Shown one piece after another: positions 11,543 to 15,344 of a DNA stretch of 64,000 bases. The notes under the pieces were generated by a model, which was given only the letters and a program-made list of their open reading frames with translations, was not told the DNA's origin and searched no databases. The DNA is from Asticcacaulis taihuensis. Lineage in GTDB: Bacteria > Pseudomonadota > Alphaproteobacteria > Caulobacterales > Caulobacteraceae. Positions within the stretch are counted from its first letter, which is position 1, and the number at the start of each line of letters is the position of its first letter. A program made the translations under genes and the position numbers. Location: the NCBI RefSeq assembly GCF_900100255.1, contig NZ_FMTS01000005.1, forward strand, positions 186,001-250,000. The letters run 5' to 3'.

Positions 11543-11938
11543 TTAATTTAAAAGAATGGTGCCCAGAAGAACCTTGGCGCCCTTGCGGCCGAGGATCGCA
11601 TCCGTGGCGGACTGGAGCTGCATGGCGATAAAGTCGGTATTGACCATGGCGGTCGAATTGAGCGTGCCGGCATAGGCTTGCAGGCGAGCGACATAGGCAT
11701 CCTGGAGGCGCGGCTGATAGAGCTTGATCTGTTCGACCAGCTTGGCGTCTTCGCAATAGAGGCCCATGTCGACACTGAGCGTGCCGTGCCGCCGGCGGCT
11801 GGCCTCGGTAAAGACATTGATTGTCTTGAACTGCGTATAGTTTTCGCCGCCGCCCTTTTTCTTGGGTTCGGAAGCAAAGGCGACCGGTGCGATAAGACCG
11901 GTTGCGGCGGCAAGGGCGAGGAACTGTCTGCGGATCAT
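11543..11938 (-). CDS. Exported protein of unknown function (possible Tat signal; weak FliL-like look)
   Basis: A 131-residue protein with an N-terminal export signal MIRRQFLALAAATGLI cleaved near AFASEP. The RRQFLAL stretch fits a short twin-arginine signal, though Sec export is equally possible. The mature protein has a lysine/glycine-rich linker, then strand and helix patterns (TLSVDMGLYCEDAKLVEQI, RLQDAYVARLQAYA). The order strand, pair of helices and a C-terminal strand recalls the periplasmic domain of FliL, but this is a weak impression. It is divergent from the response regulator operon at 12089, with a shared 150-base promoter region holding a palindrome and a CtrA-like sequence. Function unknown. 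Confidence 0.7.
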   Translation of the reverse strand: MIRRQFLALAAATGLIAPVAFASEPKKKGGGENYTQFKTINVFTEASRRRHGTLSVDMGLYCEDAKLVEQIKLYQPRLQDAYVARLQAYAGTLNSTAMVNTDFIAMQLQSATDAILGRKGAKVLLGTILLN

Positions 11939-11961
11939 TTCAGCAGTCTAACCCAGTGGCG

Positions 11962-12000
11962 TTAAGGTCCGGTTTATGTGAGGTAAATATGAAATTTACC
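11962..12000. promoter_or_regulatory. Divergent promoter region: palindrome and CtrA-like sequence
   Basis: The perfect inverted repeat ggtaaat-N5-atttacc occupies 11982-12000, and a TTAA-N7-TTTA sequence (one mismatch from the CtrA consensus TTAA-N7-TTAA) lies at 11962-11976. Both sit between the exported-protein gene (start 11938, leftward) and the response regulator operon (start 12089, rightward). Binding by any regulator is inference. Confidence 0.35.
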
Positions 12001-12088
12001 ATAAATTCAATGATATAAGTCAACTCAGAATTAAGGGATTCCCGGTATTTTTGATAAAGGCAAAGGGCGACGGACAAATTTCAACCTC

Positions 12089-12988
12089 ATGAACCTGCTT
12101 CATTCACAGACCCAGCGCCTGTTGCGAAAGGTCAACTGTCCGGCGGTCAGTCTGCTGATCGTTGAGGACAACGATGCCTCGCGCCGCCTGGTGATCGAGT
12201 TGCTGCGCGCCGCCGGCTTCGTCAATCTGAGCTTCGCCCGAAACGCCGAAGAGGCGCTCGATCATCTGCAGAACCAGGCGCCGGACCTCATGTTGCTGGA
12301 CTGGAACCTGCCGGGCATGTCGGGCCTGGAACTGGTGACCCTGATCCGCGCGGCGGCGCACCGGCCGGACGTGCGCATCCCTGATCCGGCCCTGCCGGTG
12401 GTCATGCTGACGGCTCGCCAGCGCGCTAATGATGTGGCGCTGGCGCGCGATGCGGGGATCAGTGAATTTGTCGTCAAGCCGTTTTCCACCAGCTCCCTGC
12501 TTAAGGCCATATCATCGGCCCTGACCCGGAAGCGCCCTGCGCTGATGGAGGCCGTCTCGCCCGAGCGCCGCCGGCGCAAGGCGCAACTGTTTCCGGGCCT
12601 GCTGCGGCGGCCGGAGGGCGGGGCAAAGCACACGCCCGCGGAAGCCGGACTTCAGACCTTGCGCGGCCTTATGGGCGCCGGCGGCCGGGTGCCGGAGATC
12701 GACCATATCAATCAGGTCGTCAGGCATCTGATGGAGAATCAGGCCCAGGCGCACGCCTTTCACCGGCACCTCGTCGAACAGGCGACCCAGTCCCTGAACG
12801 AGTATGTGAAGCTGGCCGGCAGAACCGCCGATACCGAGGTCATTGACGTGCATCTCGATGCGCTCATACGTCTGAACGAGACGCCTCACGCTGATGACGA
12901 TGAGGCCCTGAATATCGTCCGCCACCTCAAGGTGCTTGTCACCAAACGCAAAACCAGCCGCAGGCTTGCTTCCAGGGTTACCCAATGA
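12089..12988 (+). CDS. Response regulator with long helical C-terminal output region
   Basis: A 299-residue protein. Residues about 20-145 form a CheY-type receiver: acidic pair in LLIVEDND, phospho-acceptor Asp71 in LMLLDWNLPGMSG, Thr108 (MLTA) and Lys130 (FVVKPF). An Arg-rich linker (ERRRRKAQ) leads to a mostly helical region of about 130 residues that I do not recognise. It has no helix-turn-helix, GGDEF, EAL or HD-GYP motif, so output is probably by protein contact. The stop codon overlaps the start of the next gene (ATGA at 12985), which couples it to two paralogous proteins of unknown family. These are its most likely partners. Confidence 0.85.
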   Translation: MNLLHSQTQRLLRKVNCPAVSLLIVEDNDASRRLVIELLRAAGFVNLSFARNAEEALDHLQNQAPDLMLLDWNLPGMSGLELVTLIRAAAHRPDVRIPDPALPVVMLTARQRANDVALARDAGISEFVVKPFSTSSLLKAISSALTRKRPALMEAVSPERRRRKAQLFPGLLRRPEGGAKHTPAEAGLQTLRGLMGAGGRVPEIDHINQVVRHLMENQAQAHAFHRHLVEQATQSLNEYVKLAGRTADTEVIDVHLDALIRLNETPHADDDEALNIVRHLKVLVTKRKTSRRLASRVTQ

Positions 12989-14151
12989 ACGCTTTCACCA
13001 CTCTGGACAGCCGCACAACCCTCAACAACACCCTGTCGAACCGGGATGTGCGCAGCCTCGCCAATCTCGGCGAGACGGCCTCGACAAGCCGTGTCCTCAA
13101 CCTGTCGGCGGTCCACGTCAATTCCGCGCACGAGAAGGACTACCAGTTGCGGCCGTTCTTCCGCGATTCGCAGATGAACAAGGCCATACTGGTCAAGCAT
13201 ACGCTGCGCGCCAATGAACGCGAGCTTTTCGGCCGTTATCGCCGCACGGCCACCAAGATCATCCTGCCCTTCGATGCGACGGACCTCAAGCTGGGCGGGC
13301 GCTCGATCCTGGTCAACCAGGTCGGTTTCGACGCCTTCTGCCGTGGCTATTTCGGCGATGACATCAATGCCAATACCGATGTGCAGACCTTACGTCTGCT
13401 CGATCAGTTGCCCTCGGTCGATCCCTTCCTGGTGCGCGAGCACCTGTCGCGCCATGGCCACAAGCCGGGCGCCTGTTATCTGAAGATTTCACCCTACGAC
13501 ATCCAGCGCATGATCGGTTTCGCCAACGAAGAGATAGAGCGGCTGGTGCGCACGGCCTTTTCCGGTTCGATCGGCGGGTCGGCCATCAAGCTGGCCGGCA
13601 AGATTCTCGCTAATGAACTCGATTCCGAACTGTGGCCGCTGAAAGCGACCTTGCGCATGGCGGATGATGAGTTCTCCGATGGTATCTTCTCCTGGCGCGG
13701 CTTCCTGTATTTCAAATGGCGCCACATCGAGTTGCAGGACGAAATGCGCAAGGTGCTGGAGGGGCTCTCCACCTACCAGCCTATCGGCGCCTGCGATGAC
13801 GGCACGCGCGACTACCTGAAAGAGGTGCGCCCGCGCCTGGCCAGCCGGATCGTCAATGCCGTCGCCAGCGTCGGCCGGACGCTCAATGTCTATGACCGGG
13901 CCTATCATGCCCTCGTGCATGGCGAAAATCCCGGTCCGTTCCGCCGCTTCCTGCTTGATGGGCCGAGCCTGTTTTTTGAGCTGGGGGAAAGTATCGGCAT
14001 TCTCAGCCACATCGCCTCCTTCTGGAGCTACCGGATGGGTCAGTCGATGATGACCCAGCGCCTGACGCCGTTTGAATATGGTGACATCCTGATGGATTTT
14101 GAAGAGTCGCTGTCGGTCGTCTCGCTGGATGACGAAGAGGGCGCCGGATGA
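12985..14151 (+). CDS. Unrecognised cytoplasmic protein, first of a tandem paralogous pair
   Basis: A 388-residue protein without signal peptide, membrane span or any motif I can name. Its start overlaps the response regulator stop by four bases, and its own stop overlaps the next start in the same way. It aligns over nearly its whole length with the following protein. Shared blocks are RSLANL near residue 23, KHTLRANERELF, RRTATKIILPFDATDLKLGG, LPSVDPFLVREHL, WRGFLYFKWRHIELQ, YDRAYHAL and ELGESIGILSHIASFWSYRM. The many invariant aromatic, Arg and Asp residues point to a folded, conserved domain and not a low-complexity protein. A signalling adaptor or effector acting with the response regulator is a guess from context only. 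Confidence 0.8.
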   Translation: MNAFTTLDSRTTLNNTLSNRDVRSLANLGETASTSRVLNLSAVHVNSAHEKDYQLRPFFRDSQMNKAILVKHTLRANERELFGRYRRTATKIILPFDATDLKLGGRSILVNQVGFDAFCRGYFGDDINANTDVQTLRLLDQLPSVDPFLVREHLSRHGHKPGACYLKISPYDIQRMIGFANEEIERLVRTAFSGSIGGSAIKLAGKILANELDSELWPLKATLRMADDEFSDGIFSWRGFLYFKWRHIELQDEMRKVLEGLSTYQPIGACDDGTRDYLKEVRPRLASRIVNAVASVGRTLNVYDRAYHALVHGENPGPFRRFLLDGPSLFFELGESIGILSHIASFWSYRMGQSMMTQRLTPFEYGDILMDFEESLSVVSLDDEEGAG

Positions 14152-15344
14152 TCGGCACCAGTCTCGCCTTCACAGACGGTCTGAACCGCGCCGCCACGGA
14201 CAGCGACTTTACCTCCACGCGCGAGGTGCGCAATCTCGCCAATCTGAACCGCACCTGGTCGTCCTGCCGGGTGCTCAATCTCGCCAAGATCTATACGGCC
14301 TATAAGGACAATGAGGACTATCTCGCCAAGCCCCTGTTTGAGCACTCGGCGCTCAATCGCGCCCTGATCCTCAAGCACACCTTGCGGCTCGACGAACGCG
14401 ATCTCTTTCCGGGCGGGCGCCGCACGGTCACCAAGGTCATCCTGCCCTACGACCCCTATGACCTGCGCCTGGGCGGCCGGTCGTTCTTCGTGCGCCAGAC
14501 CCAGTACGAACCGATGATGCGCACCTATCTCGGCATCGAGGACATGGGCAAGAACCGGGATGCGAAAATCCTGCGCTGCATCGACGAACTGCCGTCGCTC
14601 GATCCCTTCCTGCTGCGCGAGCACCTCGACAAGGCTGGCTGCAATCCCTCCGGGGTCTATTTCCAGATTTCGCCGCAGGACCTGAAGGCCATGACCGCCT
14701 TTACGGCGCGCGAAATCGAGAACCTGGTCAATGTGGCGCTGGGGCAGGGCAAGAACAGCAAGGGCGCCACCCGGCTGGGCAACAAGATCCTGTCGGACAA
14801 TCTCAGCAAGACCCTGGCGCCTCTGCAAATGACCCTGCAGATGAGCGACGAGGAGTTCCAGGAAGGCATTATGTGCTGGCGCGGTTTCCTCTATTACAAA
14901 TGGTGTCACGTCGAATTGCAAAGCGGCCTGCGCGACGTTCTGGGCGGGCTGGGCAGTTACCGAACCTCAGGCAGCTATGACGAGGCCATGCGGGGGTATC
15001 TGAAAAAGGCGCGGCCGCGTATCGCAAAGGCGGTGGTCGAGATCATCAATGACGCCCGCGATACGCTCGATCACTATGATCAGGTCTATCACGCCCTGGC
15101 GGTGCGGCGCGATCCGGAGCCCTTCCGGCAATTCCTGCTGTTCGGCTCGGAACTGTTCATCGAACTGGGCCACAAGATCGGCATTCTGAACCATATCTCG
15201 TCGTTCTGGAAATACCGCATGGCGCGGCTTAACCGCAAGGGCGCGAAGCCGCTTCAGGATATCGAATTCGCCGACATGCTCGTGGATTTCGAGGCCAGCC
15301 TGTTCAACAATCTGAAGAAAGATCCCATGCGTCAGCGGGCGTAG
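14148..15344 (+). CDS. Unrecognised cytoplasmic protein, second of a tandem paralogous pair
   Basis: A 398-residue soluble protein paralogous to the preceding one and coupled to it through an ATGA overlap. Corresponding blocks are RNLANLNRTWSS, LKHTLRLDERDLF, RRTVTKVILPYDPYDLRLGG, LPSLDPFLLREHL, YFQISPQDLKAMTAF, WRGFLYYKWCHVELQ, YDQVYHAL and ELGHKIGILNHISSFWKYRM. I estimate 40-50 % identity by eye. Divergence is greatest in the N-terminal 80 residues and the C-terminal 40. Retention of two such copies behind one response regulator suggests a hetero-oligomer or two outputs. No known domain is recognised. A family A repeat lies directly downstream and probably serves as the end of the transcription unit. 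Confidence 0.8.
   Translation: MIGTSLAFTDGLNRAATDSDFTSTREVRNLANLNRTWSSCRVLNLAKIYTAYKDNEDYLAKPLFEHSALNRALILKHTLRLDERDLFPGGRRTVTKVILPYDPYDLRLGGRSFFVRQTQYEPMMRTYLGIEDMGKNRDAKILRCIDELPSLDPFLLREHLDKAGCNPSGVYFQISPQDLKAMTAFTAREIENLVNVALGQGKNSKGATRLGNKILSDNLSKTLAPLQMTLQMSDEEFQEGIMCWRGFLYYKWCHVELQSGLRDVLGGLGSYRTSGSYDEAMRGYLKKARPRIAKAVVEIINDARDTLDHYDQVYHALAVRRDPEPFRQFLLFGSELFIELGHKIGILNHISSFWKYRMARLNRKGAKPLQDIEFADMLVDFEASLFNNLKKDPMRQRA

Follow-up and report, generated by a model that had tools for sequence, protein, structure and literature searches.

A three-gene operon of Asticcacaulis taihuensis, located in a window of 64,000 nucleotides (the whole stretch of DNA that was analysed), encodes a CheY-like response regulator (RR) followed by two paralogous proteins of a family that is undescribed in Pfam, NCBIfam, PHROG, PADLOC, PDB and viral models. 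We favor, with about even confidence, a Cle-type signalling module as the reading of this operon: when the cell decides between a motile and a surface-bound state, the RR would work directly with the two paralogs. The observations behind this view are the gene order, its conservation, the Cle-type features of the RR, the neighbourhood of CleD and the co-occurrence of the genes across genomes. The features of the locus are given below.

11543-11938, minus strand: divergent gene for a secreted-looking protein of 131 aa without a Pfam match, single copy in the genome and the divergent neighbour in 15 of 16 sister loci
11939-12088, no strand: divergent intergenic/promoter region in which a motif scan found two near-CtrA sites, at 11962-11976 (TTAAGGTCCGGTTTA) and 12020-12034 (TCAACTCAGAATTAA)
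12089-12988, plus strand: RR of 299 aa, CheY-like and apparently Cle-type (Pfam Response_reg, E=2e-25; Foldseek 5chy, E=1e-9)
12149-12514, plus strand: receiver domain of the RR, residues 21-142; its phospho-site is complete (E26 D27, D71, T108, K130) and the alpha-4 arginine (R120) is present, from invariant alignment columns and alignment with CheY
12527-12622, plus strand: ARR-like arginine-rich stretch of the RR, residues ~147-178 (RKRPALMEAVSPERRRRKAQLFPGLLRRPEGG), its first half eroded in the window strain and its arginines kept (profile E=0.0011)
12635-12982, plus strand: helical C-terminal region of the RR, residues 183-298 (AlphaFold2 model m71ebc23f903c)
12985-14151, plus strand: paralog A, 388 aa, of the undescribed family (the CC3101 family) (AlphaFold2 pLDDT 85.8, pTM 0.81; no Foldseek match at E<=0.001)
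14148-15344, plus strand: paralog B, 398 aa, of the same family, 47% identical to paralog A and in its own clade across the genus

All three genes are on the plus strand in head-to-tail order, and their coordinates bear out the original prediction of a trio joined by ATGA overlaps, one between the RR and paralog A and one between paralog A and paralog B. The predicted alignment of the two paralogs over nearly their full length was recovered by BLASTP (47% identity over 379 positions, E=3e-123), and the motif blocks read from it are present, several of their residues being conserved family-wide. A third paralog, which is solitary and 63% identical to paralog A, is encoded elsewhere in the genome of the window strain.

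The clear receiver expected in the first gene is seen in the Pfam match, in the closest PDB sequences, which are CheY, and in the fold (5chy). The trio RR and CheY have the receiver fold and the phospho-site in common, and the site is complete and invariant in 17 aligned trio RRs of Asticcacaulis. The trio RR differs from CheY in its ~150 extra C-terminal residues, which comprise the ARR-like stretch and the helices, and in having no che genes beside it. This tail had been predicted to be helical and without a known motif; the first part of the prediction holds for residues 183-298 of the AlphaFold2 model whereas the second fails, as the ARR-like stretch precedes the helices.

The definition of the ARR was taken from PMC5677366 (Nesper et al. 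2017), where it is the peptide with which Cle proteins of Caulobacter bind c-di-GMP. Alignment with relatives gives the pattern (Y/F)xGP(D/C)RR ... (Y/F)xGxxRR for the tails of the Asticcacaulis trio RRs. Among the 17 RRs the first copy contains GPDRR (7), GPCRR (9) or, in the window alone, SPERR, so that the window RR reads AVSPERRR at the position of YVGPDRRR. The complete window version, SPERRR...FPGLLRR, was found at profile E=0.0011 in its own genome, and its first copy has neither the aromatic residue nor the glycine. The second copy is degenerate in the trio RRs, with G170 and R174 invariant among the 17, as are R160 and R161. Three arginines are important in CleD according to PMC5677366, R113, R156 and R169; they correspond to R120, R161 and R174 of the window RR, all of which are present. 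It is because of the ARR-like stretch and these arginines that the trio RR is classed, from its sequence, as Cle-type in layout, and the presence of the arginines favors the Cle module. The start of the tail looks like the c-di-GMP-binding ARR of Cle proteins, clearly so in sister species and in eroded form in the window strain. Since the first half is eroded, c-di-GMP binding by the window RR is doubtful, and the erosion weakens the case for the Cle module.

It is possible, although we put it forward tentatively, that the Asticcacaulis module is simply phosphorylation-driven through Asp71, c-di-GMP binding by the ARR remnant having been lost. This is a variant of the Cle module, and both can hold in part. 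The invariant phospho-site of the 17 trio RRs agrees with such a variant, as the residue matching D71 is a Glu in CleD (E70, PMC5677366), and so does the erosion of the first ARR half in the window and in two further loci (L004 and L015). Against the variant, [YF]xGP[DC]RR is retained in every aligned trio RR but that of the window (16 of 17), and R160, R161 and R174 are invariant.

The linkage of regulator and paralogs, on which the original prediction turned, is kept across Asticcacaulis and recurs in Caulobacter, where the RR is another one (CleD). Each of the 16 related Asticcacaulis loci has paralog A after the RR, mostly with an overlap of 4 bp, and 15 of them have paralog B next. A and B form separate clades in the tree, each running through Asticcacaulis, and are old duplicates that have each been retained across the genus. 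This adjacency and retention favor the Cle module. In Caulobacter, a family gene is directly upstream of cleD on the same strand in all eight loci that carry the genus label, with purA before the family gene, and in some loci a hybrid kinase is placed between the family gene and cleD. The count of eight is by genus label; a Fisher test on the cleD group was set aside as circular because the loci had been chosen for cleD adjacency. Additionally, an ARR-type RR adjoins a family gene in two f16 genomes (L148, L150) and is convergent with one in another genome (G020, L214). These neighbours, together with the position upstream of cleD, favor the Cle module, as do two loci with chemotaxis-type or c-di-GMP-type genes. 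In Asticcacaulis sp. AC466 (L050:2479-8222) genes for a PAS-type chemoreceptor (MCPsignal 4e-29) and a GGDEF-EAL protein (EAL 4e-52) precede, in the same orientation, a further tandem pair of family genes, and in G193 (L156:147-7473) a family member comes directly after cheR and cheB in a cluster that also contains co-oriented CheA-like and CheY-like genes.

CleD (CC3100) and the other Cle proteins of C. crescentus, as described in PMC5677366, resemble the trio RR in having a CheY receiver, then an arginine-rich stretch and then a further C-terminal region. CleD also resembles it in the alpha-4 arginine and in an adjoining gene from the CC3101 family. The differences, apart from the Glu in CleD and the phospho-Asp (D71) in the trio RR, are in the tails, in the separate clades and in the weak ARR of the window strain; the CleD locus has one family gene upstream of CleD whereas the trio RR has two paralogs downstream. 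The assignment of the trio RR as a CleD orthologue was rejected, as a CleD clade with 100/100 support contains no trio RRs and synteny agrees. The CleD orthologue of the window strain is found between purA and rpoH (C8:1225713), inside that clade. As the trio RR is not a CleD orthologue, the ARR regulators beside genes of the CC3101 family are of more than one kind, and this lack of orthology among the RRs concerned favors the Cle module.

The genome of the window strain has five clear ARR regulators, the CleD orthologue included. In the orthologue (G000:C8:1225713, L193), which is not accompanied by a family gene, the ARR is truncated (YVGPDRRRFNSGFGGATTRPPEN); in Asticcacaulis AC402 (L058) a family gene is retained between purA and the CleD orthologue. 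Another ARR-type RR of the window genome (L194, G000:C10:113661) adjoins an EAL-domain gene of c-di-GMP phosphodiesterase type (EAL E=1.5e-38), and in a further genome three ARR-type RRs are present inside ~12 kb (L259, G365:C3:220000-232000).

The order of the genes in Caulobacter and f16, where the family gene comes before the RR, would also suit a role of the paralogs upstream of the RR, in which they are not its output and instead control where or when a Cle-type RR is active, as scaffolds, phosphatase-like proteins or anchors. We consider this rather unlikely. A hybrid kinase adjoins the family gene in some loci (L074, L233, L237), and an output protein may be superfluous since CleD itself binds FliM (PMC5677366). 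On the other side, neither a catalytic signature nor a known fold was recognised in the paralogs, and the kinase linkage is marginal overall (p=0.034, uncorrected, for a histidine kinase beside solitary family members).

Most family members outside the Asticcacaulis and Caulobacter groups are solitary, often with several in a genome. A Cle partner in cis is therefore not obligatory, and this is the chief weakness of the Cle module. It also leaves room for a family whose function in Alphaproteobacteria is separate and for the most part independent of Cle, and for which the linkage to Cle-type RRs would be a local accident in a few lineages; we regard this as unlikely. Outside the two main groups a receiver gene is beside family members in 9 of 127 cases against a background of 29 of 946 (3%), a weak excess (p=0.036); this test and that for kinases are both uncorrected and were not relied on. 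A short gene that overlaps a family gene in L164 and is PilZ-like by eye gave no Pfam match. A local accident sits poorly, however, with non-orthologous ARR regulators adjoining the family in several lineages and in differing gene orders, with the gene overlap retained across Asticcacaulis and with a strong co-occurrence of the family and the ARR across genomes, within flagellated ones too.

This co-occurrence was determined by searching for FliM and ARR proteins in the same 385 alphaproteobacterial genomes as the family, with genomes treated as independent and phylogeny uncorrected, so that the significance of all three tests is overstated. ARR proteins were found in 31 of 41 family-bearing genomes and 66 of 344 others (odds ratio 13, p=6e-13), and FliM in 36 of 41 and 177 of 344 (p=4e-6). 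Among the genomes with FliM, 28 of 36 family-bearing ones had the ARR against 56 of 177 others (p=4e-7), and the association of the family with the ARR is stronger than that with FliM. The ARR profile included family-linked sequences, which may favor the association slightly. The co-occurrence with ARR and FliM favors the Cle module; it is weakened by the uncorrected phylogeny, by the ten of 41 family-bearing genomes below the ARR threshold and by the five without a FliM match. No FliM match was obtained in three genomes (G386, G460, G521) that carry both the family and ARR proteins.

The paralogs had been predicted to belong to an unrecognised family, and this is upheld by family profiles, for which 75 close and 47 diverse members were used. 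Neither single sequences nor deep alignments gave a significant match in Pfam, NCBIfam, PHROGs, PADLOC or PDB sequences; scattered, weak matches to FdsD, CUE and apolipoprotein helices were rejected as chance or low complexity. The confident AlphaFold2 model of paralog A has a small N-terminal alpha/beta part, which extends to ~residue 125, and a long bundle of helices at residues 227-386, and the best Foldseek hits of this model were at E=0.36 in the PDB and E=0.21 among viral models. The profile and structure searches together gave no confident known enzyme or phage family. A varying copy number and tandem duplicates might suggest a phage, defence or other mobile-element family, which we consider very improbable, as there is no consistent PHROG, PADLOC or viral-structure match and the locus is fixed and conserved genus-wide.

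The paralogs are ~40-45% identical to the Caulobacter members over ~360 residues, and their homology with the protein beside cleD extends over the whole length. Since CleD is CC3100 and the family gene adjoins it, we infer that this gene is CC3101, a hypothetical protein for which PMC2241609 gives no function and a range limited to Caulobacter and related genera. CC3101 differs from paralogs A and B in being single copy, and its family spans a wider range than PMC2241609 states, with members in 41 of 385 alphaproteobacterial genomes and in 104 of 149 Caulobacteraceae genomes, at 1 to 12 copies per genome and commonly in tandem pairs. A phylum-wide search found the family in 11 of 399 genomes, ten of them Alphaproteobacteria and one a 57%-complete genome outside the class, and the family is nearly confined to Alphaproteobacteria. 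A Brevundimonas-type member on a contig labelled Bordetella (L083) is probably a binning or labelling error.

Near-CtrA sites, scored as at most one mismatch to TTAA-N7-TTAA, are present in 16 of 16 trio promoters against 3 of 62 other intergenic regions of the same loci, or 2 of 25 when these are A+T-matched. As the 16 promoter regions are orthologous and not independent, this enrichment is suggestive of a putative control of the trio by CtrA. The near-CtrA sites favor the Cle module, and it is weakened by the promoters of Caulobacter cleD/CC3101, in which no near-CtrA site was found; control of the cleD-type locus by CtrA was rejected on this ground. The membership of the divergent 131-aa protein in the module is uncertain.

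In the Cle module as we picture it, phosphorylation of the RR, c-di-GMP binding by it, or both would alter the surface formed by its receiver, ARR and tail. The altered surface would recruit or release paralogs A and B through direct contact, and the pair, possibly a hetero-oligomer, would help to pass the signal on to a target during the swimmer-to-sessile change. The most likely target would be either the motor of the flagellum or the machinery for surface attachment at the pole, with the signal flowing from the RR outward. The literature weakens this picture, as CleD binds the flagellar motor itself and CC3101 is not named as a CleD partner in the available parts of PMC5677366 and PMC7534056.

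The Cle class is already known, and what appears to be new here is a Cle-type RR with an intact phosphorylation site. As this RR retains the site, two inputs could meet in one protein. A broader proposal, which we advance with considerable reserve as a possible one, is that receiver/c-di-GMP output proteins include a new class, the CC3101 family, which has a novel fold and serves several kinds of Cle-type regulators across Alphaproteobacteria, including non-flagellated ones (G386, G460, G521). If this were true, Cle signalling would have a branch that bypasses the flagellar switch. Through Cle proteins, flagellar behaviour and surface attachment are linked to c-di-GMP, and the available parts of the literature cited name no conserved partner besides the motor. 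The CC3101 family is a candidate for such a partner, and because CleD is a well-studied regulator and a member adjoins it in Caulobacter crescentus, for which mutants and assays are available, its role is testable there. A large unnamed alphaproteobacterial protein family would in this way gain its first functional lead.
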